Origin: Oscillospiraceae bacterium
GTDB lineage: Bacteria > Bacillota > Clostridia > Oscillospirales > Oscillospiraceae
NCBI GenBank assembly: GCA_017545165.1
Contig: JAFWQQ010000014.1
Span: forward strand, 1 to 50,246
Length of the DNA stretch: 50,246 nucleotides
Direction of reading: 5' to 3'
A model generated the notes under the pieces. The model did not search any database, was not told where the DNA came from, and saw nothing but the letters and a program-made list of their open reading frames with translations. Each line of letters starts with the position of its first letter. Position 1 is the stretch's first letter. A program made the position numbers and the translations under genes. Of this stretch, positions 12,337 to 31,042 are shown one piece after another.

Positions 12337-12564
12337 TTACTCGACTTCGATCATCTCGGCGTCCGCCTTGCGGATCGAGAGCTCGTAGTTTCTCACGTTG
12401 ACCTCCACGGGATCGCCCAGCGGGGCCAGCTTGCGGACATAGACCTCCACGCCTCTGGTGATGCCCATGTCCATGATGCGGCGCTTGACCGCGCCCTCGC
12501 CGTGAAGCTTCACGACCTTGACGGTCTCGCCGACCTTTGCGTCTCTGAGTGTTTTCATCCTCAT
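12337..12564 (-). CDS. feoA: FeoA family protein
   Basis: 75 residues with an SH3-like FeoA fold: MRMKTLRDAKVGETVKVVK, GAVKRRIMDMGITRGVEVYV and APLGDPVEVNVRNYELSIRK. FeoA is a small cytoplasmic partner thought to modulate FeoB. It lies directly upstream of feoB. A second FeoA-like gene precedes it at 12682, separated by a palindromic repeat. Confidence 0.92.
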   Translation of the reverse strand: MRMKTLRDAKVGETVKVVKLHGEGAVKRRIMDMGITRGVEVYVRKLAPLGDPVEVNVRNYELSIRKADAEMIEVE

Positions 12565-12681: not shown

Positions 12682-12894
12682 CTACACCATGATTTTTGAG
12701 GCCATTTCCTTGCTGATGGCCACGCGGGATTCCTTGATTTTCACGATCAGATTGCCGCCGATGGTGTTCATCACCGTGACGGCGCCGCCTGCCGTGAAGC
12801 CCATGTCCTCCAGGTGCTTTTTCATCTCGGGGCTTCCCCCCACTCGCTTGATGATGGCCTCCTCGCCGGGGTCTGCCAATGTCAGGGGCATCAT
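12682..12894 (-). CDS. Second FeoA domain protein
   Basis: 70 residues from ATG 12894 (a second ATG follows at 12891) behind GGAGGTGGAGGAAGG: MMPLTLADPGEEAIIKRVGG, EMKKHLEDMGFTAGGAVTVM and GNLIVKIKESRVAISKEMA, a complete FeoA-type SH3-like domain. Clostridial feo operons often carry two FeoA genes. This is the first gene of the operon, with a 118-nt gap to the next that holds the palindromic repeat. Confidence 0.88.
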   Translation of the reverse strand: MMPLTLADPGEEAIIKRVGGSPEMKKHLEDMGFTAGGAVTVMNTIGGNLIVKIKESRVAISKEMASKIMV

Positions 12895-12930
12895 CCTTCC
12901 TCCACCTCCCAAATGAGACCGCATACCAGA

Positions 12931-12948
12931 ATTAAATATATCTAACTG
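12931..12948. promoter_or_regulatory. DtxR-like operator 2 in the feo leader
   Basis: ATTAAATATATCTAACTG fits the pattern GTTAAA-4-TCTAACCG seen at 23464-23482 with two mismatches in the conserved blocks. It lies between the feo promoter and the first gene. Confidence 0.55.
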
Positions 12949-12964: not shown

Positions 12965-12982
12965 GGTTAAAGCTTTTTAACC
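12965..12982. promoter_or_regulatory. DtxR-like operator 1 at the feo promoter
   Basis: GGTTAAAGCTTTTTAACC is an 18-bp dyad with perfect 7-bp arms, 8 bases downstream of the feo -10 box. The same half-sites and spacing recur before the second DtxR gene and before the MptD/ABC operon. Repression of feo by an iron-loaded DtxR-type protein is the natural inference. Confidence 0.7.
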
Positions 12983-13074: not shown

Positions 13075-13152
13075 ATAGGAAAACCAGTTCAGGCGACCGG
13101 AAATGAAGCAAAGACGGTTTGGATCGAATTTGACACGAGTTGGGTGATGACA

Positions 13153-13521
13153 ATGAATATTCATAAATCCGCGGAAGATTATCTGGAAGCCATGCTCATG
13201 CTCAAGGAGGAGCGGGGCTATGTCCGCTCCATCGACGTGGCGGATAAGCTGGGCGTGACCAAGCCCAGCGTCAGCTACGCCACCAAGCGCCTGCGGGAGA
13301 GCGGGTATATTTCCTTCGATCCTGCCGGCATGATCGTGCTGCTGGAGCCGGGGCTGGAGATTGCCGAGCGCATGTACGAGCGGCACAAGCTCTTGTCCGA
13401 ACTGCTGATCGGCCTGGGCGTCAGCCCGGAGACCGCCCGGGAGGACGCCTGCAAGATCGAGCACGATCTGAGCGTGGAGAGCTTTGACGCCATCCGCAAA
13501 CACGCCCAGCGGTATCGCTGA
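13153..13521 (+). CDS. DtxR/MntR-family metal-dependent regulator (short form)
   Basis: About 122 residues: a winged helix (MNIHKSAEDYLEAMLMLKEE, SIDVADKLGVTKPSVSYATK, GYISFDPAGMIVL) followed by the metal-binding dimerisation helices (ERHKLLSELLIGLGVSPETA, EDACKIEHDLS). The ERH and the D-A-C-x-x-E-H cluster hold the expected ligands. The C-terminal SH3-like domain of DtxR proper is absent, as in MntR. ATG 13153 (second of two in-frame ATGs) is favoured because GGGTG lies six bases before it; the signal is weak. Divergent from feo with dyads between them, so it probably controls feo in response to Fe(II) or Mn(II). A paralogue is at 23519. Confidence 0.88.
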   Translation: MNIHKSAEDYLEAMLMLKEERGYVRSIDVADKLGVTKPSVSYATKRLRESGYISFDPAGMIVLLEPGLEIAERMYERHKLLSELLIGLGVSPETAREDACKIEHDLSVESFDAIRKHAQRYR

Positions 13522-13539
13522 GCTTCAAAAAAGAATAGC

Positions 13540-13584
13540 AAAAGGACCTCCGGTCTGCTTTGAACGCAGATCGGAGGTCCTTTT
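13540..13584. terminator. Bidirectional terminator
   Basis: Arms AAAAGGACCTCCG and CGGAGGTCCTTTTG around an inner dyad; ends both the DtxR gene and the 13-gene minus-strand operon. Confidence 0.85.
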
Positions 13585-13592
13585 GTGCTTTT

Positions 13593-14099
13593 TTATCCTG
13601 CCAGTGTGACCAGCCAGCCCACCAGGGCCGCGGGGATCAGCGCGAAGATCAGCCCGGGAAACAGCATCCCCTTTGCGTGGAACCATTTCTGGTGATAGGC
13701 CTTGTCCATGTGCTCGGTCCCCTCCAGCCGGAACATCGGCAGATTGGCGAAGAGCACCCAGTCCAGAAAGCAGGTGTCGTACACGCCGATCCAGACCATC
13801 AGTCCGAAGGCCAGCCAAAAGCCCTTCCAGAACGTGTCCGCCCCCGCGATCCGGGCACAGACAAACAGGATGCCGGTGAATATCAGCACGCCCAGGGATT
13901 TTGTCAGAACCACGTTTTTCGAGCGGTAGCTCACGTCGATCCGCGCATGGGTCTTGAAGTATTCCTCCTGAATGTCCGGCGGATAGTTGTGGATGCTCGC
14001 CGCGCTGTACTTCCGATCGCCGCGAAAATACGCAAAGAGAATGACGGTAAAGAGGCCCGCAAACACCAGCGCCTCGATCAGAATGACCCACCAGATCAT
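13593..14099 (-). CDS. Four-helix membrane protein of unknown function (operon gene 13)
   Basis: 168 residues from ATG 14099 behind AAGGAGGAAGATTCC. Hydrophobic segments lie near residues 3-22, 65-85, 95-115 and 145-165. A loop with NYPPDIQEEYFKTHARIDVS and a segment FWLAFGLMVWIGVYDTCFLD stand out. It resembles the product of 15699-16187, with the same W-x3-F...V..ID/YD...LD layout and a following basic loop, so the two are paralogues in one operon. Not identified as a known transporter. Last gene of the 13-gene operon; the terminator begins just after it. Confidence 0.7.
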   Translation of the reverse strand: MIWWVILIEALVFAGLFTVILFAYFRGDRKYSAASIHNYPPDIQEEYFKTHARIDVSYRSKNVVLTKSLGVLIFTGILFVCARIAGADTFWKGFWLAFGLMVWIGVYDTCFLDWVLFANLPMFRLEGTEHMDKAYHQKWFHAKGMLFPGLIFALIPAALVGWLVTLAG

Positions 14100-14168
14100 G
14101 GAATCTTCCTCCTTCTGCTGTTCTCTGATAGAAAGGTCGAAAGGCAAGGGTTTTCCGGAAGACCGGCA

Positions 14169-14960
14169 TTATTTCTTTCCCAGCAGCAGCGCGGAGCCGG
14201 AGAGGGCCATCCACTTCGCCTCCCGCGGGGAAATAAACTTTCCGTTTGTGGTGTCGATCAGCTCCACCTTTTCGTAGTCCATTTTGCGGAGCTTGTCAAC
14301 AAAAAGCTGCATGTCGCCGTATTTGGCCCTGGAAAAAATGTCGTGCAGGGCGAAGGTCCCGCCTTTTTTCAGCACCCGGAGCGTCTCCAGCAGGATCTCT
14401 TGCCGGTCGCGGCCGGGGATGTTGTGGTAGACGTAGTTGCTGGTGACGGCGTCAAAGCTCTCGTCCGGGAAATCCAGCTTCAGCGCGTCGCCCTGCCGGA
14501 ACTCCGTGTTGGAAACGCCCTCGGCTTTGGCGTTTGCCTCGCACAGGGGCTTGTTGTAGGAGGCGTACTCCTTGCCCCAGCGGTCCAGGCCGATGAAGCG
14601 GGCCTGGGGGTTGCGCTTGGCGCAGGCGATGGTCAGCGCGCCGCTGCCGCAGCCCACGTCCAGCCCGACGCCGCCCTCCGGGAGCATCACCGTGTCCGCG
14701 ATCCCCTCGATGACCTGCCGGGACATCTGCCGCTTCCCGTCGTAGGAAAAGGCGCGGTACAGCAGCGCCATCCACAGCCCCGCGCCGCCTGCCGCCGCGC
14801 CCGCCAGCAGCAGGGCGCCCGTCGTCACCGCTTTCGCGGTCTCGTTTTTGATGAGGTCCGTGCAGCCGCAGAGGGCGGCCAGGCCGAAGCAGCCGACGGC
14901 GCCTGCCAGCGTCCCGAGCACCATGCCCTTGGGCATCCAGTTTTTGCAATCCGGTTTCAT
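14169..14960 (-). CDS. Class I SAM methyltransferase with N-terminal membrane helices (operon gene 12)
   Basis: 263 residues from ATG 14960 behind AAAGGAGGCAAAGCTT. Two hydrophobic helices (about 12-32 and 45-68) precede a Rossmann methyltransferase: motif I LDVGCGSGALT near 100, acidic LDRW near 125, GDALKLDFPDESFDAVTSNY near 165-185 and LRVLKKGGTFALHDIF near 207. It is probably tethered to the inner face of the membrane. A Gly/Ala-rich stretch links helices and enzyme. Target unknown. One of four methyltransferases in the operon. Confidence 0.82.
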   Translation of the reverse strand: MKPDCKNWMPKGMVLGTLAGAVGCFGLAALCGCTDLIKNETAKAVTTGALLLAGAAAGGAGLWMALLYRAFSYDGKRQMSRQVIEGIADTVMLPEGGVGLDVGCGSGALTIACAKRNPQARFIGLDRWGKEYASYNKPLCEANAKAEGVSNTEFRQGDALKLDFPDESFDAVTSNYVYHNIPGRDRQEILLETLRVLKKGGTFALHDIFSRAKYGDMQLFVDKLRKMDYEKVELIDTTNGKFISPREAKWMALSGSALLLGKK

Positions 14961-14974
14961 AAGCTTTGCCTCCT

Positions 14975-15688
14975 TTATTCTTTTTCTATTTCCCGCAGGA
15001 CGAGCTTTCTTCCGCCGAAAAACATCACGATCCAGCCGAAGCTCTCGAAGCCGGAGACGAAGCCCTTGAAGGGCCAGGGGATCAGCAGCTCCAGCACATA
15101 GCCGATCCCGGCGACGATCAGGGGCGCGGCCAGGATCCACGTTTTCTTCAGCGCGAAGGTCCCCCGCAGGATCAGGGCGATCCAGCCAATCAGAACGGAG
15201 AGCTCGAAGGCGAAGAAGGTCGTCCAGTACGGGACAAACTGCACCAGATAGGAGCGGTCCCACAGCGCCGCCGCCAGCTCCGTATCGCCTCCGGCAGCCT
15301 CATAAAGCAGATTGAAGTTGTGGATCAGCGTCCCGCATTCCAGGTGGAAATACAGAAAGCACATGACGCCCAGGAGCAGCCCGGCGATATAGAGCTTCAG
15401 CAGCCGCCGATCCCATTTGTCCCCGCACTGGGGGAGCAGGCTTCTCAGAAAGGCCGCGAAAGGCAGCGCGGCGAGCGTGTAGCACACGGTGCCGAGCAGC
15501 CCGCCGATGTTGGACAGCGCGATCCGCCAGTCGGCGATAGTCAGCCAGCCCGAGGAGATCATCCCGGAAAGGACCGCGCTGTCCTTCGGCTCGATGCCCA
15601 TGCAGTAGTCGCCGAGCATGGCCAGCAGCATGCCGGGGATGACCCAGAGCATCCGGCGGTATACGTTTTTCAGTTCGTTTTTTGTCAT
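14975..15688 (-). CDS. DUF6796-like multi-pass membrane protein (operon gene 11)
   Basis: 237 residues from ATG 15688, with about seven hydrophobic segments. It starts MTKNELKNVYRRMLWVIPGM and has the GDYCMGIEP loop, then GMISSGWLTIADWRIALSNI. This GD-x-x-x-G start and overall layout match the protein at 18523 (GDWLIGYDP), so the operon has two copies. I recall this as DUF6796, a domain of unknown function; that name is from memory. The stop lies 14 bases before the methyltransferase at 14960. Confidence 0.65.
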   Translation of the reverse strand: MTKNELKNVYRRMLWVIPGMLLAMLGDYCMGIEPKDSAVLSGMISSGWLTIADWRIALSNIGGLLGTVCYTLAALPFAAFLRSLLPQCGDKWDRRLLKLYIAGLLLGVMCFLYFHLECGTLIHNFNLLYEAAGGDTELAAALWDRSYLVQFVPYWTTFFAFELSVLIGWIALILRGTFALKKTWILAAPLIVAGIGYVLELLIPWPFKGFVSGFESFGWIVMFFGGRKLVLREIEKE

Positions 15689-15698
15689 AAGCAACACC

Positions 15699-16187
15699 TC
15701 ACAAAACCAGCGCCATGATCCCGGCCAGGATCGCCGAGAGCAGGGCGAAGCCCACCGTGCCGATCAGCCACTTGCCGAGCTTGTCCTTGCGGTCGATATA
15801 GGGCCGCAGATCCTCCGTGCCGGGGATGACCCAGGCCTTCGTGTGTCCGACCCACCAGGCGTCGATCCCCAGCCGGTCGATCAGATTCACGACGGAGAGG
15901 ATGGCGAAGCTCTGCCAAAAGCCGGGAAGAAAGCCCCTTGCGCCGTTGACAACATAGACGCTGACCAGGACGAAAGCGAAGTAGAGCGGGATAGCCAGGC
16001 CCTTGAACAGAAGCCGGTTCCCGTTGATCTGCTCTCTTGTGATGAGGCCGTTTTGGATACAGCGCTCCTGCACGTCCCCATGGTACAGAAAGACCATGTT
16101 GACCGCGCCCCTGCGAATGCCGAGGGCGCAGAAGCCGACCAGCAGCGCCCCGAGCAGCAGGCCTTCTATAACGATTTTGCCGAGCAT
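15699..16187 (-). CDS. Membrane protein, paralogue of the 13593 gene (operon gene 10)
   Basis: 162 residues with about four membrane helices behind GGAAGGAGGCGCGGC. Notable is IPGTEDLRPYIDRKDKLGKW, a basic amphipathic loop between the last helices. It also has LYHGDVQERCIQNGLITREQ after helix 1, the same position as the NYPPDIQEEYFKT loop of 13593. Function unknown; paralogy is inferred by eye. Its stop lies 10 bases before the next ATG. Confidence 0.7.
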   Translation of the reverse strand: MLGKIVIEGLLLGALLVGFCALGIRRGAVNMVFLYHGDVQERCIQNGLITREQINGNRLLFKGLAIPLYFAFVLVSVYVVNGARGFLPGFWQSFAILSVVNLIDRLGIDAWWVGHTKAWVIPGTEDLRPYIDRKDKLGKWLIGTVGFALLSAILAGIMALVL

Positions 16188-16243
16188 GCCGCGCCTCCTT
16201 CCATGTCAAACCTGTCGGGCAGCCCCGTTTCTGGGCTGCTTTT

Positions 16244-16828
16244 TTATTCCTTCCGGAAACAGAAATAGCCCTCCAGCCCCAGGTCGATGGCCTTCTTCAC
16301 GGTGCAAAAGCCGCGGCGCTTGGCCTCCCGCTCCAGCTCCTCAAAGCTGAACAGGGCCTCCTCGGCGTGGTCCCAGCGCAGCAGCGCGTCCACCAGATGG
16401 ATGCAGCGCCGGGAGAGGTCCGCGATATAGATGCAGCCGCCGTCCTTCAGCACCCGGCGGCACTCGTCGAAGAAAGTCCGCCAGCCCTCTACGTGGTGCA
16501 GGATACAGAAGTCCAGCACCGCGTCGAAGCTTCCGTCTGGGAAGGCGGAGAGGTCGTCCGCGCTGCCCTGGACAAAGCGGGCCCTGGGCAGCTGCCTTTC
16601 CAGGGCGAGAGCGAGCTGCTCCGGCATGATGTCCAGCCCCGTGTAGCTGCGCGGGGCCTCCGCCGTAAGGAGCGAGGCGGCGTAGCCCGAGCCGCAGCCC
16701 ACCTCGAGAATATCCCGGTCCTCGATCCGCAGGCCGAACTTTTTGAAGGTCGCAAGCTCGATCTTTCGGATATACCACTTGCGCCAGCCCGACTGCATGG
16801 CCTTGAATTCCCTGGGACAGAGCTTCAT
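16244..16828 (-). CDS. Class I SAM methyltransferase (operon gene 9)
   Basis: 194 residues; motif I ILEVGCGSGYAASLL near 40, acidic GLDIMPEQL near 63, GSADDLSAFPDGSFDAVLDF near 95-110 and CRRVLKDGGCIYIADLS near 130-145. A Methyltransf_11/25-type enzyme. The ATG overlaps the stop of the hydrolase gene upstream (ATGA), and AAGGAGAACACAAG precedes it. The substrate is not evident. Confidence 0.85.
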   Translation of the reverse strand: MKLCPREFKAMQSGWRKWYIRKIELATFKKFGLRIEDRDILEVGCGSGYAASLLTAEAPRSYTGLDIMPEQLALALERQLPRARFVQGSADDLSAFPDGSFDAVLDFCILHHVEGWRTFFDECRRVLKDGGCIYIADLSRRCIHLVDALLRWDHAEEALFSFEELEREAKRRGFCTVKKAIDLGLEGYFCFRKE

Positions 16829-17739
16829 CTTGTGTTCTCCTTCATCTTCCGGATCATCAGGTTCCAGCCCTCTTTTGCTTCCTTGCACAGCGGGAAGACG
16901 GGATAGCAATGGAACATCCCCTCGCCGACGATCATCTCATAGTCCACGCCGTACTGCTTCATGGCCGCCTCGAAGGAGGGCGCGCAGGCGTAGAGCGTCT
17001 CGTCGCTGCCGTAGATAAAAGTGACCTTCGGGCAGTTCGTAAAGTCGCCCCGCTGCAGCCAGAGCATGTAGTCGGGGACGCTGTCGTCCCCGCAGCGCAT
17101 GATCTCCACGGCGGTCTTCATGTACACCGCCGGGATCGCCACGTCCTTTTCCTCCAGCTCCAGCATCCGCCGCCATTCCTCCTCCGTGTCCACGCAGGTG
17201 CCGGGGGAGATGGCCATGATGTACGCGGGCATGGGCGTGTCGCCGTGGCCGTCGTTGATGTAGGGCACCATGCCCAGGGCCAGATTGCCGCCCGACGAGG
17301 TGCCGAGCACGGAGATGTGCGCTGCCGCGTAGTCCCGCAGCATGACCCGATAGGTCTTGTGGATCATCTCATAGGCTCTCGTCAGCGGGTAGTCCGTGCA
17401 AAGCGGATAATAGGGGACGAAGAGGTCGAGCCCCGTCTCCCTGGCAAAGCGCAGCGCCTTTTTGACAGAGCCGGGCCGCGGCGCGCTGATCATGCCGCCG
17501 CCGATCAGAAAGAGATTGGCCCGGTCCGTCTTCTCCCTGTGGATCAGCTTCAGCACCGGGCAGCCCATCACCTCGATGCGGCTGATGGTGAAAGCGTCGT
17601 CTTTCAGCTCCGGGATGCGGTTTTTCGCGTTCTCCCGCCGCCGGTTTTCCAGCAGCGCCTCCGTGCTCATGCCGCTCCAGCGCTTTTTGATGTTCGCAGC
17701 CTTCACGATGCGTTTCAGGAGTTCGTATTTCAGCGTCAT
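16825..17739 (-). CDS. Alpha/beta hydrolase, hormone-sensitive-lipase-like (operon gene 8)
   Basis: 304 residues from ATG 17739. Oxyanion motif LIGGGMI near 98 (the usual H-G-G-G is replaced by IGGG), nucleophile elbow GTSSGGNLAL near 167, acid YGSDETLY near 252 and His in EGMFHCYPVF near 280 give a full catalytic triad. Probably a carboxylesterase or acyl transferase acting on a small ester. Overlaps both neighbours by four bases (ATGA), so three consecutive genes are coupled. Confidence 0.82.
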   Translation of the reverse strand: MTLKYELLKRIVKAANIKKRWSGMSTEALLENRRRENAKNRIPELKDDAFTISRIEVMGCPVLKLIHREKTDRANLFLIGGGMISAPRPGSVKKALRFARETGLDLFVPYYPLCTDYPLTRAYEMIHKTYRVMLRDYAAAHISVLGTSSGGNLALGMVPYINDGHGDTPMPAYIMAISPGTCVDTEEEWRRMLELEEKDVAIPAVYMKTAVEIMRCGDDSVPDYMLWLQRGDFTNCPKVTFIYGSDETLYACAPSFEAAMKQYGVDYEMIVGEGMFHCYPVFPLCKEAKEGWNLMIRKMKENTR

Positions 17740-18518
17740 GCTTTCGCCTCCATGCACGCGTCGATGCTGTCCATCACCGGCTTCCGCCAGGTATCGTCGT
17801 AGAGCCAGATCTCGTGCTTCATGTCGAATTCGTGGATATCCGGGTCCCGGAAGTGCTGACGATAACGCTTCCCGTACTTTTCGCCCATTTGCAGCGCGTA
17901 GATAATGTGCACCGTGGTGCCCTCCACACAGATGTCGTCGTCCAGGGGCGTGATGTAGTCGGAGTAAAACTGACGGCTGATCGTCTTCGGGTTGAGGGTC
18001 TTCATGTTGTCGATGAAATCGTTGGCAAAGGCCAGGGACTTGTCCCCGTCCCCGATGGCGCCCTTCTTCCGCAGCTTCGCCTTGAGCTTTTCGCGCTTCT
18101 TCTCGCTGGTGCAGGCGCCGGAGAGCATGGGGCCGACGATCATGGTCAGCAGCCGCGCGGTCAGCTTTCCGCCCTGGTCCAGATCCGAGGAGCCGATGAA
18201 GCCGTGGTCGATGTGGACGCGCTTTCGCTGGATCAGCAGCCCCACAAAGCTGCCGCCCAGGGAGGAGCCGTAGGCTCCGTCCACCCGGCCGCCGTGCTTT
18301 TCGAGGAGATAGTCCTCGATCTTCTCCGTGACCGTGGGCACGTCGGTGAAAACGACCGCGGGATCTCCCTCGAAGCCGTCGTAATTGACGGCGATGAGAT
18401 GATATTTCTCTGCCAGCTCATCCACGACGTTTTTGAAATTCAGCTGCCAGGTGCAGGCCGTGCCGGGCAGGAGCAGCAGCGTCTTGCCGTCCTGCTTTCC
18501 GAACTCTGTAAATTGCAT
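17736..18518 (-). CDS. Alpha/beta hydrolase (operon gene 7)
   Basis: 260 residues from ATG 18518 behind GAGGTGATTGT. LLLLPGTACTWQLNFKNVV near 15-33 is the oxyanion strand and GSSLGGSFVG near 88 the nucleophile elbow. MKHEIWLYDD near the C-terminus may supply the histidine. Unlike the neighbouring hydrolase it belongs to the classic LPG-type group. It has a lysine-rich insert (KKREKLKAKLRKKG, about 140-155), probably a cap. Substrate unknown. Confidence 0.78.
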   Translation of the reverse strand: MQFTEFGKQDGKTLLLLPGTACTWQLNFKNVVDELAEKYHLIAVNYDGFEGDPAVVFTDVPTVTEKIEDYLLEKHGGRVDGAYGSSLGGSFVGLLIQRKRVHIDHGFIGSSDLDQGGKLTARLLTMIVGPMLSGACTSEKKREKLKAKLRKKGAIGDGDKSLAFANDFIDNMKTLNPKTISRQFYSDYITPLDDDICVEGTTVHIIYALQMGEKYGKRYRQHFRDPDIHEFDMKHEIWLYDDTWRKPVMDSIDACMEAKA

Positions 18519-18522
18519 ACAA

Positions 18523-19224
18523 TCACCTCTTTGTTTTTGACGCGATGTAAAACGCCAAACACAGGAAGGCCCAGCCCCAGGACTCCCCGCAGGCGGTGAG
18601 GAAGGCAAACTTGCTGTCTGCCGCCAGCAGCACCGCGCCGAGGAGCTTTGCCAGCAGGCTCATGCCCAGGGGGCAGCAGACCACCGCCGCCTTCGGGAGC
18701 TTCAGCCGACCCTTCAGCACGAAAACGATATAGCCCACCGTCACCGGAATGTCGCACAGAAAGCACCACAGGAGGAAGGGCAGAAGGGACGCCGCCACCG
18801 GGAGCAGGAACACGCTGTTTGCCGCCTGGACGTCCAGCCCCGCGCGGAGGGCCGCCTGCATCAGCAGCAGCACGATGCAGCAGGCCGCGTGGAAGGAGAC
18901 GAACATCATCGGCGCGGAGGCCAGGCCGAAACGAAAAGCCCGGTACGCCCTGGACGTTTTTGGGACGCCGAGTTCGTCCAGCACCTCGAGCATCGCCGGA
19001 GCGAAGGCCCGGCAGCCGAAGCCGGACAGGATGCCGAAGCCCAGGGAGAGGATATAAAACCAGCTCGGCACCGCGGTGATGGCCGTGTTGCTGATGCCGA
19101 AGACCAGCGGCTCGCCCCCCGGGGGATCATAGCCGATCAGCCAGTCCCCGATCCCGCACAGAAACAGCGCGATAAAGCCGAAAAGCAGGGCCTTTTTTGC
19201 TGTTTTCGCTTTTATTTCACACAT
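18523..19224 (-). CDS. DUF6796-like multi-pass membrane protein (operon gene 6)
   Basis: 233 residues with six or seven hydrophobic segments and the GIGDWLIGYDPPGGEPLVFG loop after helix 1. Further features are a soluble loop (LDELGVPKTSRAYRAFR) and VSFHAACCIVLLLMQAAL. Paralogous in layout to 14975-15688. The start (GTGTTCAGATG region) has GAGGGAGTG upstream. The ATG lies 13 bases inside the end of the preceding gene, so the two overlap. Confidence 0.65.
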   Translation of the reverse strand: MCEIKAKTAKKALLFGFIALFLCGIGDWLIGYDPPGGEPLVFGISNTAITAVPSWFYILSLGFGILSGFGCRAFAPAMLEVLDELGVPKTSRAYRAFRFGLASAPMMFVSFHAACCIVLLLMQAALRAGLDVQAANSVFLLPVAASLLPFLLWCFLCDIPVTVGYIVFVLKGRLKLPKAAVVCCPLGMSLLAKLLGAVLLAADSKFAFLTACGESWGWAFLCLAFYIASKTKR

Positions 19225-19892
19225 CTGAACACTCCCTCGGCACGCACCGTATGCACCTCGACCTCCGTGTACAGACCCCGCAGCCTCTCTTTCAGGCTTT
19301 TCGCCGTCTCAAAGGGCGGCGTGAAGAAGCCCTTGGGGACGTACATGTGCTTGACGAACCAGTCGGTGCGCCCAAACTCCCCGGCGATATAGAAGCAGCC
19401 GCAGAACACGCCGCCCTTTTTGAGTACGCGGCAGGTCTCCCGGAAGGCCGCGTCCTTGTCCGGGAAGGCGTGGAAGCCGTTGAGCGAGAGGACCAGATCA
19501 AAGCTCTCGTCCGCAAAGGGCAGCGCGCCCACGTCGCCCTGCACGAAGGCGACGTTGGGAATCTGCATGGCCGCGGCGCGCTTCTTTGCGTTTTCCATCA
19601 TGTCCGCGGAGTAGTCGAGACAGGTGATTTTGGCTTCCGGCAGCGAGGCGTAGAGCGGCATGGTCAGCACGCCCGTGCCCACCGGCACCTCCAGGAGGCT
19701 GCCCGAATAATCCGCCGGGATCGGGGCCAGGGCGTCCTCGATCCATTTTTCCGAAAGCTCCTTGTCCAGCCCCCAGATCAGGCCGTCCATCAGCTTGCCC
19801 AGAAGGGTGGAGCGGGTGATGATCCCGTCGTAGAGGTTCCCGATCCGGCCGAGCTCTTTGTAGGATCGCCGGATCTCGTCATGCCGCGTCAT
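19212..19892 (-). CDS. Class I SAM methyltransferase (operon gene 5)
   Basis: 226 residues from ATG 19892, two bases after the stop of the upstream gene. Motif I reads LLEVPVGTGVLTMPL near 66, a VPVGTG variant of the usual GxGxG. LDYSADMMENAKKRAAAMQ near 90, GDVGALPFADESFDLVLSLN near 118 and CRVLKKGGVFCGCFYI near 155 follow. This resembles menaquinone/ubiquinone-type (UbiE-like) methyltransferases, but the genomic context is not quinone synthesis. Substrate unknown. Confidence 0.82.
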   Translation of the reverse strand: MTRHDEIRRSYKELGRIGNLYDGIITRSTLLGKLMDGLIWGLDKELSEKWIEDALAPIPADYSGSLLEVPVGTGVLTMPLYASLPEAKITCLDYSADMMENAKKRAAAMQIPNVAFVQGDVGALPFADESFDLVLSLNGFHAFPDKDAAFRETCRVLKKGGVFCGCFYIAGEFGRTDWFVKHMYVPKGFFTPPFETAKSLKERLRGLYTEVEVHTVRAEGVFRCVK

Positions 19893-19894
19893 GT

Positions 19895-20731
19895 TCACGC
19901 CTCCTTGAATTTGATCTTCACGATCTTCATGTTCACCAGGCCGTCGCAGAAGCGGATCATCAGCTTGTGGAAGAGGCCCACGTCTTTGTAGATATCGCGA
20001 TAGCCGCGCATGTAGCTCTTGGCTGTGACCGAGGCAAAGCGCCGGCTCCAGCTCCGCAGCTCCGCCTCGTCCTCCAGCGAGAAAAAGGCGCTCACATCGG
20101 TGATCCCGGCCTCCTTCAGCCAGGTCTTGCGCATCAGCTTCGCGCCGCGCTCGTTGCAGGAATCGAAGGCCAGCACCGCGCCGGGGAAGCGCTCGGCCAT
20201 GGCGGCAAAGAGGGCTCTCACGTCCTCGGTCTTGAAGTAGTAGAACACGCCCGCGGCGAAGAACACTGCGCCGTTTTTCGCGTCGATGGCGTCCATCCAC
20301 GCAAAGTCGTTGAGATCGCAGGCGAGATTCGTCTCCCGCTCGACCGCGGGCAACAGCTCATTCCGCACCGCGATCACGTCCGCAAAATCCAGGTTATAGC
20401 CCCGGCAGAGAGAGTTCTCCACCTTGGAAAAGGTGTCGTCCAGGCCGCAGCCCAGATTGACCACGGCGGCCTGCGGGTTCTCCTTCAGGTACGCCTCCAC
20501 CTCGCAGCAAAGATCGTACTGCCGCTGGGCCACCTCCAGCGCGCCGAAGAGCCCCGCCGGGGACTCCATCTTTTTGCGCTTCTCCGCGAAGTCGTAGTCC
20601 AGGGAATCACAGATCCGTTTGGCCTCGGGATCGGAGAAGAGCTGCGGAAAGCGCTCCGAGCACACCAGCCGCCCAAAGAGCGGGATGATCAGCGTCTCCT
20701 GGACGGTGTTTTTTTCGATGTGATATTTCAC
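19895..20731 (-). CDS. Leucine carboxyl methyltransferase-family (PPM1-like) enzyme (operon gene 4)
   Basis: 278 residues. The N-terminus (TLIIPLFGRLVCSERFPQLF, ...RICDSLDYDF) and AVVNLGCGLDDTFSKVEN near 90 are typical of bacterial LCM/Ppm1-family O-methyltransferases, seen in polyketide clusters and elsewhere. FFAAGVFYYFKTEDVRALF near 175 and LAFDSCNERG follow. It methylates carboxylates or hydroxyls in described members; the target here is open. Its ATG overlaps the stop of the HMA gene. Confidence 0.8.
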   Translation of the reverse strand: MKYHIEKNTVQETLIIPLFGRLVCSERFPQLFSDPEAKRICDSLDYDFAEKRKKMESPAGLFGALEVAQRQYDLCCEVEAYLKENPQAAVVNLGCGLDDTFSKVENSLCRGYNLDFADVIAVRNELLPAVERETNLACDLNDFAWMDAIDAKNGAVFFAAGVFYYFKTEDVRALFAAMAERFPGAVLAFDSCNERGAKLMRKTWLKEAGITDVSAFFSLEDEAELRSWSRRFASVTAKSYMRGYRDIYKDVGLFHKLMIRFCDGLVNMKIVKIKFKEA

Positions 20732-20979
20732 CGCCTGAACCAGCCTTTCTTTTCATAAGGCGCGGATTCTGCGGACAGGCAGGTGTAGCCCGTGGCGGCG
20801 ACGGCATTTTTCAACGCGCTCTCATCTGCCGGCGCTTCCGACAGGAAGGATGCCTCGCCCTTTGTATAGGAGGCGGCGACCTTTTTCGCGCCGGGGACGG
20901 CCTTGCGGATCACGTCGCAGATATGCGCCTCGCACATGGAGCACATCATCCCGTCGATCTTCAATGTGGTTTTGATCAT
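20728..20979 (-). CDS. Heavy-metal-associated (HMA) domain protein (operon gene 3)
   Basis: 83 residues: beta strand TTLKIDGMMCSMCEAHICDV with the metal-binding CSMC (the HMA CxxC motif), then AVPGAKKVAASYTKGEASF and LKNAVAATGYTCLSAE, the full ferredoxin-like fold. An extra C-terminal tail ends KKGWFRR. Such domains bind Cu(I), Zn(II) or similar soft metals. No P-type ATPase is nearby, so its partner is unclear; it may supply metal to an enzyme in this operon. Confidence 0.85.
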   Translation of the reverse strand: MIKTTLKIDGMMCSMCEAHICDVIRKAVPGAKKVAASYTKGEASFLSEAPADESALKNAVAATGYTCLSAESAPYEKKGWFRR

Positions 20980-20983
20980 CGTT

Positions 20984-21619
20984 TTATCTCCTTTTCTTCT
21001 TGTAGCCGCAGTCGCAGTAGGGGCCGCCGGAGGCCAGGGTGTACTCGCGCACGAATTCGTCCGCGCCGCCCGCCTCGCTCATGGTGTAGTCCAGGCGGCA
21101 CATGGCGGGCACCAGATCGCGAAGCCCCAGCTCGCCCATCAGCGCGCAGATGCCGCATCGGGAGAAGCGGGCCTCGTAGCCGCTGCCGTCGGGGTAGGGG
21201 AGGAAGTCCATATTCCAGGAATAGGGGTTGCGGTCCGCCGCGTTGAGGGCGGCGGTTTTCTTCATGCCTTCGACGTCCTTTTCGCTGAACTTCCGCTTCC
21301 CCATCCGGCGGCAGAATGCCCGCATCGGCCCGGTCATCATGGCCGCGGCGTAATAGGCCGTCAGCTCGTCCACGTCCGGCCGCTTCGGCATGCTCAGCAC
21401 AAAGGCCGCCAGCATGGCGCAGCTCACGATATTCATCTGAAAACGGTCGCCCTTTTCAAAATCGGGCAGCTTTCCGATCAGCTCCCGGAATTTGCCGCGG
21501 GCTTTTCTTGTGATCTCCGCCGCCGCGGGGCGGTCATAGCCCAGCACCTCCGTCAGCTTGCTCCGAAAGCTCCCGACGAAGAGCGCCCACATCCCCGCGG
21601 GCATCCCCAGGACCTTCAT
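20984..21619 (-). CDS. L-2-amino-thiazoline-4-carboxylate hydrolase-like protein (operon gene 2)
   Basis: 211 residues. The C-terminal half, with RCGICALMGELGLRDLVPAM and CRLDYTMSEAGG then TLASGGPYCDCGY, is the hallmark of the ATC_hydrolase family, named for a Pseudomonas enzyme that opens 2-aminothiazoline-4-carboxylate to give cysteine derivatives. Conserved Cys and Asp/His positions suggest metal or thiol chemistry. Most family members have no proven role, so only the family is claimed. Its start overlaps the stop of the upstream gene by four bases. Confidence 0.75.
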   Translation of the reverse strand: MKVLGMPAGMWALFVGSFRSKLTEVLGYDRPAAAEITRKARGKFRELIGKLPDFEKGDRFQMNIVSCAMLAAFVLSMPKRPDVDELTAYYAAAMMTGPMRAFCRRMGKRKFSEKDVEGMKKTAALNAADRNPYSWNMDFLPYPDGSGYEARFSRCGICALMGELGLRDLVPAMCRLDYTMSEAGGADEFVREYTLASGGPYCDCGYKKKRR

Positions 21620-22485
21620 GGGCGGAACACCTTCTTTGCCAGGCGGACCGTGCGGGCCTTTTCCTCGGTGTCGTCCGCTTCCTCATAGCCGTCGTAGGGC
21701 GCTTCGGGGTCCGTATACTTCCTCGTGAAGGGCCTGCACAGCTCCGTCCGGTGCCAAAAGGCGGCGTCCAGATCGTCCGTCCAGCCGGTGTGACCGGTGA
21801 TGATCTTGATGGGCCCCTTCCGGGCGCGGAGCAGCATTTCCAGCGCGGCCAGGGACCGGACCGCCAGCTTGTTGTCCTCGGCCAGCGTGGAGAGGAAGCT
21901 GTAGCCGCCGTCCGCGCCGAACCAGATCGTGTCGCCGGTGAAGAGATACGCGTCGTCGATCAGATAGACCATGTGGCCCCAGGTGTGGCCGGGGCAGAGG
22001 ATGCACTCGATCCTGATCCCGTCGATGTCCAGGATCTGTCCGTCCTTGAGCGGGACCCGCCTGTTGTCGGTCTTGACCAGAGGCAGCTTGTAGAGCCCGT
22101 GGATCACCTTGCGGCGCGCCTCTCCGGTCAGATAGCGGTTTTCGATCTCGCTGATGTAGACCGTGGCGTTCCGGAACAGCTGCTCGCTGTCCGTCTCCAG
22201 GGCGCCCACGTGGTCGGTGTCCTGATGGGTGATCAGGATTTGCTCAATGGAGGCGGGGTCGATGCCGAGCCAGCCCATCTTCTCCCGCAGGCGGTCGTAG
22301 TTGTATCCGGCGTCGATCATGATGGTCCTGCCGTTTTTGGTATAGAAGAAGATGTTGGCGACCCATTCCCGCACGCAGGCCACGTGCCCGTCGATCCACC
22401 CGGTGTTCAGGGGCTTGAAGATCGCCCGGCCGCGAAACATCACACTCATGGACTTTTTCTGGTCTTCCGAATCCTTTTTTGACAT
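21616..22485 (-). CDS. Metallo-beta-lactamase-fold hydrolase (operon gene 1)
   Basis: 289 residues. Metal motif ILITHQDTDHVGALE near 85 (H-x-D-x-D-H, so the second His of the usual HxHxDH is Asp), CPGHTWGHMVYLID near 165, FTGDTIWFGADG near 183 and TGHTGW near 230 complete the set of metal ligands. Strands at the N-terminus (TGWIDGHVACVREWVANI, FFYTKNGRTIMIDAG) fit. First gene of the operon, starting behind AAAGGAGAGACCGCC; a palindrome-bearing promoter lies just upstream. Substrate unknown: glyoxalase II, lactonase and arylsulfatase-like roles are all possible. Confidence 0.87.
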   Translation of the reverse strand: MSKKDSEDQKKSMSVMFRGRAIFKPLNTGWIDGHVACVREWVANIFFYTKNGRTIMIDAGYNYDRLREKMGWLGIDPASIEQILITHQDTDHVGALETDSEQLFRNATVYISEIENRYLTGEARRKVIHGLYKLPLVKTDNRRVPLKDGQILDIDGIRIECILCPGHTWGHMVYLIDDAYLFTGDTIWFGADGGYSFLSTLAEDNKLAVRSLAALEMLLRARKGPIKIITGHTGWTDDLDAAFWHRTELCRPFTRKYTDPEAPYDGYEEADDTEEKARTVRLAKKVFRP

Positions 22486-22518: not shown

Positions 22519-22532
22519 CTAACGCATGTTAG
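22519..22532. promoter_or_regulatory. Palindromic operator-like site before the 13-gene operon
   Basis: CTAACGCATGTTAG has perfect 5-bp arms around CGCATGT-type centre bases and sits between the -10 boxes and the first gene. The shape suits a TetR- or MarR-type repressor, but no such gene is in the window. Confidence 0.45.
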
Positions 22533-22533
22533 A

Positions 22534-22577
22534 ATTATATAACTACGAAGTATAGCACATCTCTTTTCGTTTGAAAA
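22534..22577 (-). promoter_or_regulatory. Candidate promoter(s) of the 13-gene operon
   Basis: On the minus strand TTTTCA (22577-22572), 17 bases, TATACT (22554-22549). A second perfect TATAAT lies at 22539-22534 without a good -35. Both precede the palindrome. Confidence 0.5.
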
Positions 22578-22727
22578 TACCCATTTGAAAATTTTCGGAA
22601 AAACTGGAGCGCCGTCCCGCGCCGACGCCCTTGCCGCCCCCACCGGGGGAGGTGTCATCCGCCGATCCCCCGCGAGGCGGATGACGGAAGGGGTCCTCCG
22701 TCTGCGCCTTGCCGTTCGTCCTCCGGC

Positions 22728-22913
22728 GTAGGGGCGCTTCAGGTCGCGCCCGCCGTCTCGACCCGCGCCGACGCCCGTAACGTCGCCGGGCATTGCCCGG
22801 CGACGTTACGCGCAAGGATCGCCGACCGATGGTCGGCGCTACGGGGATAAAGATCCTTCGACTCGCTTCGCTCGCTCAGGATGACAGCGTAGGGGAGGGG
22901 CTTGCCCCCTCCC
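22728..22913 (+). repeat. Direct repeat unit A of the mosaic
   Basis: Starts GTAGGGGCGCTTCAGG, contains a perfect 15-bp-arm hairpin (GTAACGTCGCCGGGC, 22777-22809), the CCGACCGATGGTCGG dyad, the half dispersed repeat (22851-22887) and ends in GTAGGGGAGGGGCTTGCCCC. Unit B repeats it 273 bases on. Confidence 0.8.
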
Positions 22914-23000
22914 GCGTTCCGCGCCGACGTTCGTCCCTCGTCGTAGGGGCCGACGCCCTCGGCGGCTCGCCGACCCGCGACGGCGTCCCGTCCCACGCCC

Positions 23001-23182
23001 GTAGGGGCGCTTCAGGTCGCGCCCGCCGTCTCGACCCGCGCCGACGCCCGTAACGCCGGGCATTGCCCGGCGACGTTACGCGCAAGGATCGCCGACCGAT
23101 GGTCGGCGCTACGGGGATAAAGATCCTTCGACTCGCTTCGCTCGCTCAGGATGACAGCGTAGGGGAGGGGCTTGTGCCCCTC
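23001..23182 (+). repeat. Direct repeat unit B of the mosaic
   Basis: Near-identical to unit A at a period of 273 bases. Four bases are missing from the left arm of the hairpin (GTAACGCCGGGC at 23050), so the arm lengths no longer match. A two-base change near the end gives GGCTTGTGCCCC. Confidence 0.8.
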
Positions 23183-23433
23183 CCGCGACCCGCGCCCACG
23201 TCCGTCCTCCGGCGTAGGGGCGCTTCACGAAGCGCCCGCCGTCTCGCACGAACGTTCGTCGGGGTCTCGCGAACAACTCCCTTCGTCATCCAGCTTGCGT
23301 GAGACGCTGGATGACACCTCCCTCAGAGAGGGAGGCAAGCCTCCGTCACGGCGCTTGCGGCTGACGCGCCGCGCCCCTGGGGCCCTTGTCCAGATCCCTG
23401 CGGCAACTCCGATCCCCCCCCATTTTTCGGGTG

Positions 23434-23461: not shown

Positions 23462-23483
23462 GCGGTTAAAGAAATCTAACCGC
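23462..23483. promoter_or_regulatory. DtxR-like operator at the second DtxR promoter
   Basis: Arms GCGGTTA and TAACCGC separated by 8 bases, abutting the -10 box. The first ten bases, GCGGTTAAAG, are identical to feo operator 1 (12963-12972). Autorepression is likely. Confidence 0.7.
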
Positions 23484-24056: not shown

Positions 24057-24077
24057 GAAGTTAAATGTCTCTAACCG
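24057..24077. promoter_or_regulatory. DtxR-like operator before the MptD/ABC operon
   Basis: GTTAAATGTCTCTAACCG aligns with the dyad at 23465-23482 at the same half-site spacing, 20 bases before the ATG at 24097. Confidence 0.6.
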
Positions 24078-24096: not shown

Positions 24097-24669
24097 ATGA
24101 AAAAACGCCCTGTGTTTCAAATCCTGCTGGCCATGCTGATCTATGCCGCGCTGTTCGTCTTCAGCTCAAGCTTCGGCCTGATCCATCCGGCCTGTTACGC
24201 CTATGCCGGCACCTTTATCCCGATCCTTTTCAGTTTTGTCTATCTCTATGTGGCCGCGAACCTGCAGAGCTTCGGCGCGGCGCTGCTGCTGAACGGCTTT
24301 GTTCTGATCGTCGGCTTGATCGCGGGGGAAGGGAACCTTCCGTTTATCGTCGGCCTTATCGTCCTGGCTTTGCTTGCGGAGTGCATCCGGCGGCTGAACG
24401 GCTGTGATACGCGCAGAGGCGTCCGCTTGAGCTTCATCCCCTCCGCCTTTTCCTTTTACGCCTATTCCGCCCACTGGTGGACGGATACGGAGGGCTCCCT
24501 TGCCGCGGCAGTCGAGGAAATGCCGGAGGGATATGCGGACAAGATGCTGCCCGTGATCCGGAATGTGCCGATGCTTGTTATCATGCTGACCTTGACGAAC
24601 CCCGCGGCGATCCTCGGTATGCGGCTGGCCGAGAGCGTGATGAAAAAGCAGGCCGAAAAGCTTCGTTAA
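24097..24669 (+). CDS. MptD-family (Trep_Strep-type) putative ECF S-component membrane protein
   Basis: 190 residues with five or six helices (about 8-25, 30-65, 70-88, 90-108, 150-172). It starts MKKRPVFQILLAMLIYAAL. The length, hydrophobic pattern, central SFIPSAFSFYAYSAHWWTDT loop and tail EGYADKMLPVIRN match the MptD/Trep_Strep family, annotated as ECF-type substrate-binding components and often found beside iron-regulated ABC pairs. The ATG follows AGAGAGGTGTCTC. The two ABC half-transporters follow at once, and a DtxR-like operator precedes it. Substrate binding is inferred; a metal chelate or cofactor is plausible. Confidence 0.75.
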   Translation: MKKRPVFQILLAMLIYAALFVFSSSFGLIHPACYAYAGTFIPILFSFVYLYVAANLQSFGAALLLNGFVLIVGLIAGEGNLPFIVGLIVLALLAECIRRLNGCDTRRGVRLSFIPSAFSFYAYSAHWWTDTEGSLAAAVEEMPEGYADKMLPVIRNVPMLVIMLTLTNPAAILGMRLAESVMKKQAEKLR

Positions 24670-28232: not shown

Positions 28233-28245
28233 AGAGCATGACAGA

Positions 28246-28298
28246 GAAAAAAGACCGGGATGCCGCGTACAGAACAGTGCGCAGCATCCCGGTTTTTT
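28246..28298 (+). terminator. Terminator of the MptD/ABC operon
   Basis: Arms ACCGGGATGC and GCATCCCGGT with a loop of about 20 bases, then TTTTTT. Confidence 0.85.
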
Positions 28299-28312
28299 GC
28301 GTTTTTGGCAGA

Positions 28313-28341
28313 TTGATATGGCGTTGAGAGCGTGGTATAAT
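28313..28341 (+). promoter_or_regulatory. Promoter of GNAT gene 1
   Basis: TTGATA (28313-28318), 17 bases, perfect TATAAT (28336-28341). Confidence 0.8.
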
Positions 28342-28383
28342 CGGGGCAACAAAGCGGAATTTGACAAAGAGGGGTTAGCGATT

Positions 28384-28851: not shown

Positions 28852-28897
28852 TATGAAACTATTAGTATAATACCAGCTTGCCGAGGTATACGGAACG

Positions 28898-29353: not shown

Positions 29354-29366
29354 GAAAGTCGAAATG

Positions 29367-29396
29367 TGTCTCACGGTGAGACATATTTCCGGGCAA
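29367..29396. repeat. Cassette-end repeat, copy 1 (short)
   Basis: TGTCTCACGGTGAGACA palindrome followed by TTTCCGGGCA, 13 bases after the stop of GNAT 2. Related copies at 30922 and 31764 also carry a terminator hairpin; this one lacks it. Confidence 0.7.
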
Positions 29397-29436
29397 GCAA
29401 AAGCAATGGCGATACAGGATCAAAGGAGAAAAGAAT

Positions 29437-30918: not shown

Positions 30919-30921
30919 ACT

Positions 30922-30999: not shown

Positions 31000-31042
31000 T
31001 TATGCGCGGAAGCAATTTATATAATTGATATGCAAAATATAC

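Follow-up and report, generated by a model that had tools for sequence, protein, structure and literature searches.

What a 13-gene operon with four predicted methyltransferases and no recognised pathway contributes to its host is the question raised by contig JAFWQQ010000014.1 of Oscillospiraceae bacterium (GCA_017545165.1), of which positions 1 to 50,246 were analysed (hereafter the window, 50,246 nucleotides). The preliminary description placed 13 coupled genes on the minus strand from 22485 to 13593. All were present there, and they are predicted to form a single, tightly coupled transcription unit, since they overlap or are separated by short gaps. Overlaps of 4 bp were found at MBL/ATC (ATGA), HMA/LCM, AB7/AB8 and AB8/MT9, and one of 13 bp at MT5/DUF6796 a. 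The gaps measure 2 bp (LCM/MT5), 4 bp (ATC/HMA and DUF6796 a/AB7), 10 bp (TM10/TM11), 14 bp (TM11/MT12), 56 bp (MT9/TM10) and, as the largest, 69 bp (MT12/TM13). Both claimed boundaries were also located. The promoter-like site has 9/12 matches and is accompanied by a palindrome best read as a repressor site, and the stem of a strong terminator lies at the other end (Table 1).

Table 1. Features of the operon and of the adjoining genes, ordered by position in the window
Feature	Position	Strand	Evidence or remark
feoB, ferrous iron transporter, 762 aa	10036..12324	-	PF02421 221.5 bits, FeoB_Cyto, FeoB_C
feoA2	12337..12564	-	PF04023 77.6 bits
feoA1	12682..12924	-	PF04023
Operator before feoA1	12966..12981	-	pattern match; second, weaker at 12931-12946
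dtxR1, second DtxR/MntR-type repressor	13135..13521 (start codon approximate)	+	Pfam; convergent with operon
Terminator, operon vs dtxR1	13539..13585		20-pair stem, then T-rich sequence on both strands
TM13, small hydrophobic (membrane) protein, last gene	13593..14099	-	TM10 paralogue; start with ribosome-binding site
MT12, class I SAM methyltransferase	14169..14960	-	PF08241 73.1 bits; hydrophobic N-terminal part by eye
TM11, DUF6796 membrane protein b	14975..15688	-	PF20599 89.1 bits; paralogue of DUF6796 a
TM10, small hydrophobic (membrane) protein	15699..16187	-	TM13 paralogue; Pfam none
MT9, class I SAM methyltransferase	16244..16828	-	PF08241 83.9 bits
AB8, alpha/beta hydrolase, hormone-sensitive-lipase-like	16825..17739	-	PF07859 63.8 bits
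AB7, alpha/beta-hydrolase-like, 260 aa	17736..18518	-	GSSLGG by eye; Pfam none
DUF6796 membrane protein a	18523..19224	-	PF20599 80.4 bits
MT5, class I SAM methyltransferase	19212..19892	-	PF13649 85.4 bits
LCM-type methyltransferase, 278 aa, GTG start	19895..20731	-	PF04072 36.3 bits, cut-off 22.3
HMA, small metal-binding-type protein, 83 aa	20728..20979	-	PF00403 32.1 bits, cut-off 24.8
ATC, ATC-hydrolase-family protein, 211 aa	20984..21619	-	PF14196 83.8 bits, cut-off 28.1
MBL, metallo-beta-lactamase-fold hydrolase, 289 aa, first gene	21616..22485	-	PF00753 62.6 bits, cut-off 22.7
Operator GTTATATAATTCTAAC of the operon	22528..22543	-	5 bp after -10 of promoter 22577-22549
Operator GTTAAAGAAATCTAAC of dtxR2	23465..23480	+	3 bp after 12-of-12 consensus promoter
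dtxR2, short DtxR/MntR-type repressor, 124 aa	23519..23893	+	PF02742, PF01325; divergent from operon
Operator before Trep_Strep/ABC operon	24060..24075	+	pattern match
Trep_Strep, MptD-type putative ECF S component, membrane	24097..24669	+	PF09605 102.3 bits
ABC half-transporter 1, exporter fold	24686..26488	+	PF00005, PF00664
ABC half-transporter 2, exporter fold	26490..28232	+	PF00005, PF00664

Matches above the curated Pfam cut-off were obtained for Lactamase_B, ATC_hydrolase, HMA, LCM, Methyltransf_11/25 (3 genes), Abhydrolase_3 and DUF6796 (2 genes), which supports the previously assigned MBL, ATC, HMA, LCM and three other methyltransferases. Of the two alpha/beta hydrolases, AB8 was upheld by Pfam, while AB7, like TM10 and TM13, has no Pfam family and gave very weak NCBIfam matches (E 0.0026 and 0.0059) besides its motif. 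The two membrane pairs are paralogous as described, with 25% identity each (DUF6796 pair, E 5e-11; TM10/TM13, E 4e-07). Five of the 13 genes encode membrane proteins or proteins with a hydrophobic part. Neither a P-type ATPase nor, with Pfam profiles, a condensation/adenylation assembly line was found in the operon, in agreement with the preliminary description; the P-type ATPase family occurs in 17/117 loci, with one representative confirmed. The absence of a recognised pathway, the link to metal and the membrane proteins were likewise supported.

LCM is a putative LCM-type carboxyl methyltransferase. Its predicted fold (pLDDT 92.6) is nearest to PPM1, LCMT1 and TYW4, and matches the PPM1/LCMT1 type, although identity to these leucine carboxyl methyltransferases and to TYW4 is only 14-16%. 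The residues Cys155, Cys174, Asp177, Arg191 and Cys202 of ATC are invariant in an alignment of 57 relatives and paralogues, ATC itself included, and diverged paralogues with 18-24% identity are present in the same islands. A PDB sequence search matched nothing for ATC itself and gave a single hit at chance level (E 0.18) for its profile. The reaction expected of an ATC hydrolase is the opening of 2-aminothiazoline-4-carboxylate. The enzyme breaks the C-S bond of a thiazoline, and its family PF14196 is similar to V4R and HNOB domains (PMC5847659, excerpts). ATC shares the family match and the conserved Cys/Asp/Arg with that family, but its genomic context is different. HMA carries the motif GMMCSMCE (alignment of 17).

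The operon is best explained by the regulators and transporters that flank it. Two DtxR/MntR-type repressors are encoded alongside, and dtxR2 has Cys at the position where MntR has Glu. Mn or Zn are possible as the metal, because the nearest models for the two repressors are those of MntR, with scores below cut-off. The Trep_Strep protein scored 54.6 bits against TIGR02185, under the cut-off of 76.45. The best single-chain PDB matches of ABC half-transporter 1 were 6p6i, a YbtPQ structure (305 bits), and IrtA (294); MsbA scored 265. An exporter-fold pair adjoining the operon resembles the IrtAB/YbtPQ siderophore importers; this likeness is by sequence alone, MsbA scores close, and MsbA was the top-scoring NCBIfam model, below cut-off. 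Such a pair was found near LCM in 14/26 distant loci. Related loci also hold ZIP, DUF3793-flavodoxin, FeoB and a NEAT protein.

Palindromes of the GTTAG-N6-CTAAC type are common to the promoter of the operon, the divergent dtxR2, the Trep_Strep/ABC-pair operon and feoAB, and the second feoAB (contig 72) also has an operator-type site. The operator of the operon, GTTATATAATTCTAAC, is degenerate, with one mismatch to the relaxed GTTAR-N6-YTAAC. The same GTTAG-N6-CTAAC core is contained in the gel-shift-tested EqbA operator of the equibactin siderophore locus (PMC3672683, excerpts). Exact copies numbered 174 in the window and 116 related loci, against 0.2 expected. The own genome held one exact strict site, as did the reversed control, and the relaxed pattern with one mismatch allowed gave 18 matches against 103 for the reversed control. 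With in-run sites counted, 66 of the 106 untruncated LCM runs had an exact site, 19 a site with one mismatch and 21 none; for the 18 truncated runs these numbers were 4, 1 and 13. By the strictest count, an exact site at most 300 bp before the run start, sites were found for 32/98 LCM runs, 21/310 other runs and 16/80 runs with another listed family. Sites downstream of genes were present at 30/145 controls, and 9/48 and 10/32 for LCM; the whole island is thus rich in sites, given their frequency downstream of control genes. Operator control was absent from the preliminary description, which stopped at the edges of the operon.

Since these palindromes are common to feoAB and the other promoters, and the core is found in the EqbA operator, the locus is read as an iron-starvation operon. 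Iron acquisition under starvation is indicated by the operator, the neighbours (two feoA, feoB, two dtxR, Trep_Strep/ABC) and the genes of related loci. Judging from these sequences, iron starvation is most likely its role, rather than the detoxification suggested in the preliminary description. Detoxification by methylation, in which HMA and the methyltransferases would handle Hg, As or a similar metal or metalloid, draws on the nearest models of HMA (mercury reductase and CopZ, below cut-off) and on weak ArsM matches of MT5 and MT12. However, the ArsM scores lie far below the NCBIfam cut-offs (MT5, 59 against 510 and 57 against 263 bits; MT12, 54 against 510 and 55 against 263; MT9, 36.5 against 510), feoAB has the same type of operator, and the 13 genes include neither an efflux pump nor an ArsR/MerR regulator. 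Detoxification is highly improbable and was rejected on operator, neighbours and ArsM scores; operator, neighbours and related-locus genes point to iron acquisition.

We give about an even chance to an iron-starvation operon that makes or remodels a small lipophilic iron-mobilising compound, is repressed by an EqbA-like DtxR protein and has its compound moved by the ABC pair. Observed are the gene set with its tight coupling, the common operator, the neighbours, the recurrence, the modelled LCM fold and, in most carriers searched, the absence of the usual siderophore synthases. Repression by Fe(II), the compound itself and its nature, the function of the individual enzymes and the direction of transport are inferred. 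When iron is plentiful, the Fe(II)-loaded repressor (dtxR2 and/or dtxR1) would sit just after the -10 and block the operon; iron shortage would jointly release the operon, dtxR2, the Trep_Strep/ABC-pair operon and feoAB. The methyltransferases, hydrolases and small membrane proteins would then make or remodel the compound. LCM would be the constant part of the pathway, frequently joined by the ATC-family protein and by HMA as a metal carrier, and MT5, MT9, MT12, AB7, AB8 and MBL may tailor the compound. Its transport may fall to the small membrane proteins and the IrtAB/YbtPQ-like pair, and Feo, plus ZIP in relatives, would serve metal entry.

Synthases of known metallophores were searched in 20 genomes chosen from 38 with an LCM homologue (LCM identity 41-100%); 19/20 were at least 90% complete, and the own genome (75% complete) was included. 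The condensation domain PF00668 was absent from 18/20, being present in G174 and G181, while NIS synthetase (IucA/IucC) and the nicotianamine synthase (NAS) family were found in 0/20 each. NRPS, NIS and NAS metallophores were rejected as readings with 2, 0 and 0 of 20 carrier genomes. Pfam recognised no scaffold-building enzyme among the 13 genes, and among the papers listed in searches of open-licence PMC literature, none described this operon in its title or the start of its abstract. Iron may be gained here in an undescribed way, without the usual siderophore-building enzymes, as these results suggest.

The missing synthases, in an operon with transferases, hydrolases, metal-binding and membrane proteins yet no recognised scaffold builder, would also suit a catabolic role under the same iron-starvation control. 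An imported iron carrier (foreign siderophore, haem or other organic iron complex) would be dismantled, with esterases and the ATC-type enzyme cutting the carrier and methylation blocking its iron-binding groups, so that iron is freed. The match of ABC half-transporter 1 to the mycobactin importer IrtA, the thiazoline C-S cleavage of ATC hydrolase (PMC5847659, excerpts) and the operator at a NEAT-domain gene in relative L147 are consistent with this. However, a catabolic pathway with four SAM methyltransferases would be unusual, LCM persists in 13/80 loci that have none of the other operon genes, and neither a receptor nor a siderophore-binding lipoprotein could be recognised among the 13 genes; we consider the catabolic role, including this chemistry, rather unlikely.

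A membrane lipid or quinone could instead be remodelled in iron shortage, for example as a diffusible shuttle reducing Fe(III) for FeoB. UbiE/MenG were the best NCBIfam models, far below cut-off (MT5, 75 vs 158; MT12, 55 vs 216 bits), but UbiE models commonly pick up class I methyltransferases, which counts against this explanation. The membrane or hydrophobic character of 5/13 genes would agree with it, as would flavodoxin, an iron-sparing protein, in 13/117 loci. The operon has no recognised gene for quinone biosynthesis, however, and the HMA, ZIP and ABC partners are left unexplained, making such remodelling distinctly improbable. In Faecalibacterium, flavodoxin rises with feoAABC (PMC10781979, excerpts); the word methyltransferase does not occur in the main text of that paper.

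Returning to the compound made or remodelled under iron starvation, one of the closest described systems is equibactin, encoded by eqbA-N on ICESe2 of Streptococcus equi (PMC3672683, excerpts). Similar to the window, it has a short DtxR-like repressor (EqbA, without SH3 domain), the operator core, a role in iron acquisition, a YbtPQ-like ABC pair (EqbK/EqbL, 29% identity to YbtP/YbtQ) and a putative alpha/beta hydrolase. However, equibactin is built by NRPS, and the operon here lacks NRPS, salicylate ligase and thiazoline reductase; as far as the excerpts go, equibactin has no counterpart of LCM, ATC, HMA, DUF6796 or the three further methyltransferases. The equibactin-like element 023_CTn1 of C. 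difficile RT023 also combines a DtxR/MntR-type regulator, in an anaerobic member of the Clostridia, with a predicted siderophore cluster, but that cluster is NRPS-based and has a salicylate synthase (PMC6814731, excerpts).

A further comparison is offered by opine metallophores of the staphylopine type, which involve SAM-fold enzymes and a ketopantoate-reductase-like gene. Both features have parallels here, the latter in some relatives (15/117 loci), whereas the NAS family is absent from the 20 genomes searched. Tentatively, and with less than even probability, the locus may represent a new class of iron-mobilising natural products, from an LCM-centred SAM-methyltransferase pathway, frequently including ATC-family and HMA proteins, without NRPS, NIS or nicotianamine synthase. 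It would be common to Bacillota, perhaps also Spirochaetota, of the ruminant gut and varied through exchangeable cassettes of methyltransferase, hydrolase and small-membrane-protein genes. Rumen iron competition would then be a chemical arms race. Should an iron carrier be made or broken down by this island, genome mining for NRPS/NIS/NAS would miss the iron economy of dozens of ruminant-gut species, and searching any genome for GTTAG-N6-CTAAC would yield a candidate regulon.

Conservation of the gene set, proposed as a check in the preliminary description, held in the nearest relative L003, where 12/13 genes are in the same order with 89-95% identity, and only partly across 80 LCM loci, 69 of them ruminant-labelled. 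The gene not found in L003 is TM13. LCM, the most conserved operon member, is the constant part; ATC (46 loci), HMA (42), MT5 (36) and MBL (26) stay with it in part, the first two as frequent companions, and the remaining genes are variable. LCM occurs without any of the other 12 genes in 13 loci, some on short contigs. This widely varying content, with one locus of 12 genes, one of 10 and none of 13, could speak for a chance assembly of unrelated genes under one promoter. Against it, ATC, HMA, MT5 and MBL are always on the LCM strand (46/46, 42/42, 36/36, 26/26), the operator recurs, and purifying selection acts on all 12 genes shared with L003 (dN/dS 0.09-0.27). Chance assembly is hardly credible, already unlikely because of operator recurrence, locus gene counts and selection.

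LCM has likely spread horizontally, given its patchy occurrence and an identity of 79-92% across families in the 80 loci retained. No close carrier was found among plasmids (77 records, all below 60% identity, 10 covering at least 80% of the query) or phages (1 record, 28% identity). In an LCM tree of 42 rows (the window and 41 of the 80 loci), families needed 9 label changes, against a minimum of 4 and a shuffled mean of 13.6 (as low in 0/200), and are clustered but not clean, with none separated by the starred branches. Both spirochaete rows stood together. One LCM carrier, Erysipelotrichaceae bacterium NK3D112 (L055), has no MAG label in its record title and is probably a cultured rumen isolate.

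The operon comprises 13 minus-strand genes, with junctions ranging from a 13-bp overlap to a 69-bp gap, behind a sigma-70-like promoter (9/12 matches). By Pfam, these genes encode, in order, an MBL hydrolase, ATC_hydrolase, HMA, the leucine-carboxyl-methyltransferase-type enzyme LCM, MT5, DUF6796, AB7, Abhydrolase_3, MT9, TM10, DUF6796, MT12, and TM13; AB7, TM10, and TM13 were without a Pfam family in this search. The four methyltransferases of the preliminary description were confirmed by Pfam, and its two pairs of paralogous membrane proteins by pairwise sequence comparison. Its two alpha/beta hydrolases were likewise present, one of them recognised by eye.

Coordinates of the operon, its surroundings and related features in other loci (L-numbers) and in the own genome (G000)
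Feature	Location	Strand	Observation
Operon, 13 genes	window 22485 -> 13593	minus	
Operon promoter	window 22577-22549		
Operon operator	window 22528-22543		
Operon end	window 13539-13585		20-pair stem, then T-rich sequence on both strands
Repeats	window 22600-23340		dispersed noncoding repeats over about 0.75 kb, separating the two divergent promoters; include a 126-nt direct repeat (98%)
Low-G+C stretch	window 28000-32000		G+C about 0.46 against about 0.60-0.66 alongside; two GNAT acetyltransferases and a DUF6773 protein
Clostripain-family (C11) peptidase	window 36353-38860	minus	835 aa
Second feoA-feoB set (L152)	G000 contig 72, 31332		40-52% identity to the first; exact operator
MMPL-family exporter gene	L078:11220-13577		
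MMPL-family exporter gene	L082:4910-7270		
NEAT/FIVAR protein	L147:324-2915		863 aa; exact operator about 45 bp upstream
AhpC-type peroxiredoxin gene	L131:2471-3034		exact operator starts 41 bp upstream
AhpC-type peroxiredoxin gene	L145:11156-11719		exact operator starts 46 bp upstream

A pattern-based scan for LCM in 84,980 species genomes gave 197 places, and the 80 best matches (79-92% identity) were retained. By NCBI names, 78 of these belong to Bacillota and two to Spirochaetota, with Oscillospiraceae (27), Lachnospiraceae (20), Erysipelotrichaceae (7), Christensenellaceae (1), and Sphaerochaetaceae (1) as families and no family assigned in 24. Some bins may include contigs that do not belong to them. 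Record titles carry ruminant or rumen-project labels for 69/80 loci and are silent on source for the remaining 11. LCM homologues were found in 38 of 200 genomes of the window's family (E 0.001) and in 9 of 391 genomes of its class (E 1e-60; those other than the own genome at 44-54% identity), the own genome counted in both. Given these counts and labels, the 79-92% LCM group is tight, patchy, and mostly ruminant-linked.

At a threshold of 50% identity over 60% of length, LCM (80) is accompanied in the 80 loci by ATC (46), HMA (42), MT5 (36), MBL (26), AB7 (22), and MT12 (20), and more rarely by AB8 (13), TM10 (9), DUF6796b (7), TM13 (6), MT9 (4), and DUF6796a (3). Thirteen loci hold LCM without the other 12 genes; 8 kb are present on both sides of LCM in only 32/80. 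The sole further operon gene found in the spirochaete loci was HMA in L078 and MT12 in L082. The nearest relative, L003, retains 12 of the 13 genes in the same order, with 89-95% identity and dN/dS of 0.09-0.27.

Upstream regions of the relatives share a palindrome. Its exact strict form, GTTAG-N6-CTAAC, has 174 copies in the window and 116 loci (together 117 sequences, 1.81 Mb), where dinucleotide shuffles give 0.2; sites with exactly one mismatch number 97 against 16.8, and with two mismatches 156 against 300. Going by the length and content of the contigs, three of the 117 loci are duplicates (L113 of L004, L115 of L039, L122 of L054) and L038 and L033, identical in LCM DNA, were counted as a fourth repeat; 167 exact sites are left after removal of the four. 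The 20 carrier genomes contain 177 exact sites, against 16 for the pattern read backwards.

The exact strict form is absent from the window itself. For the relaxed form, GTTAR-N6-YTAAC, the own genome assembly (2.4 Mb, 75% complete) has four exact sites, three of them in the window, upstream of feoA1, dtxR2, and the Trep_Strep membrane protein and ABC genes, and the fourth upstream of a second feoAB. The operon's own site departs from this form at one position and is located 5 bp past the -10; the dtxR2 and feoA1 sites lie 3 and 8 bp past theirs. With up to one mismatch, 18 relaxed sites were found in the own genome, five of them inside 11.1 kb of the window, a clustering far above chance by a post-hoc estimate. 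However, the reversed control is commoner at this stringency (103 vs 18), and therefore weak sites alone mean little.

The share of LCM runs with an operator varies with the counting rule. The most lenient of three, counting sites inside the run, gave 66 runs with an exact site and 19 with a one-mismatch site among 106 untruncated LCM runs. Exact sites within 300 bp before the run start, a count affected by false short ORFs in the gene calls, were present for 32/98 LCM runs vs 21/310 unrelated runs. Within 3 kb upstream the values were 26/48 and 15/32 for LCM vs 16/145 for distant unlisted genes, and downstream 9/48 and 10/32 vs 30/145.

On its 3' side, the operon is followed by the convergent repressor gene dtxR1 and feoA1-feoA2-feoB. 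On its 5' side lie the divergent dtxR2, the Trep_Strep membrane protein, and two ABC half-transporters. The operators of the operon and dtxR2 are about 940 bp apart in the window and 683 in L003, and only 118-137 bp apart in L004, L020, L028, L034, and L036. The low-G+C stretch was perhaps acquired.

EqbA, as described in PMC3672683, is a DtxR-like repressor without SH3 domain, with Cys104 (iron type) and Asn13, which binds a 36-bp palindrome upstream of the equibactin genes in response to Fe2+, Zn2+, and Mn2+. This palindrome includes GTTAGATGTATCTAAC (PMC3672683), an exact fit to GTTAG-N6-CTAAC. Control of the operon would be of an already known kind, an EqbA-like iron box. The dtxR2 product is likewise short (124 aa), and its DACGMEH motif has Cys at the position of the MntR Glu. 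It has Asn at the first ligand position, where the compared MntR sequences have an acidic residue. The nearest NCBIfam model for both repressors is MntR, under its cut-off (dtxR2 98 vs 153 bits). Since feoAB has the same operator, iron is favoured as the metal, with Mn or Zn possible. Taken alone, control by iron starvation is very likely.

The gene set combines methyl transfer, hydrolysis, and small membrane proteins with an iron-box-type operator and an adjoining ABC pair. Among the best 60 of 462 PDB matches, half-transporter 1 scored 305 bits with 6p6i, 294 with the mycobactin importer IrtA, and 265 with MsbA, and two-domain transporters such as P-glycoprotein had a higher total score. MsbA was the top NCBIfam model for the ABC protein, yet under its cut-off. 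The apparent likeness to IrtA/YbtPQ is a lead, not a proof. We hold with moderate confidence that the operon may synthesise or remodel an iron-mobilising lipophilic molecule under iron-starvation control; that it breaks down an imported iron carrier is less favoured and rather unlikely. Siderophore synthases were sought in 20 carrier genomes chosen from 38, the incomplete own genome among them: condensation domains were absent from 18/20, and IucA/IucC and NAS from all 20. In most carriers, therefore, the compound is probably something other than a standard siderophore that the carrier itself produces. The pathway under the operator fits none of the three siderophore classes searched (NRPS, NIS, NAS); a categorically new product would be the bold case. 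ATC hydrolase has been related to the V4R and HNOB domains (PMC5847659), and a tetrapyrrole cluster is reported to include a protein of the ATC type (PMC8401325). A tetrapyrrole ligand is a possibility.

Neighbourhood families of the 117 loci, own included, were built as single-linkage clusters, in which small proteins are undercounted. ATC was present in 63 loci, one methyltransferase cluster in 62, HMA and AB7 in 36 each, ZIP in 35, ABC in 30, MBL in 29, TM10 in 27, DUF3793 and DtxR in 18 each, P-type ATPase in 17, KPR in 15, and flavodoxin and FeoB in 13 each. Pfam searches on a single member of each cluster confirmed the identities of ZIP, KPR, DUF3793, flavodoxin, P-type ATPase, FeoB, and ABC. 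The islands also harbour many diverged ATC-family paralogues (18-24% identity to ATC). In two spirochaete bins, MMPL-family exporter genes with exact operators upstream lie near LCM, which may point to export where the host is diderm. Haem uptake may be part of the same regulon, as the NEAT/FIVAR protein gene has an operator. The AhpC-type assignment of the two peroxiredoxins comes from a Pfam run on the L131 copy.
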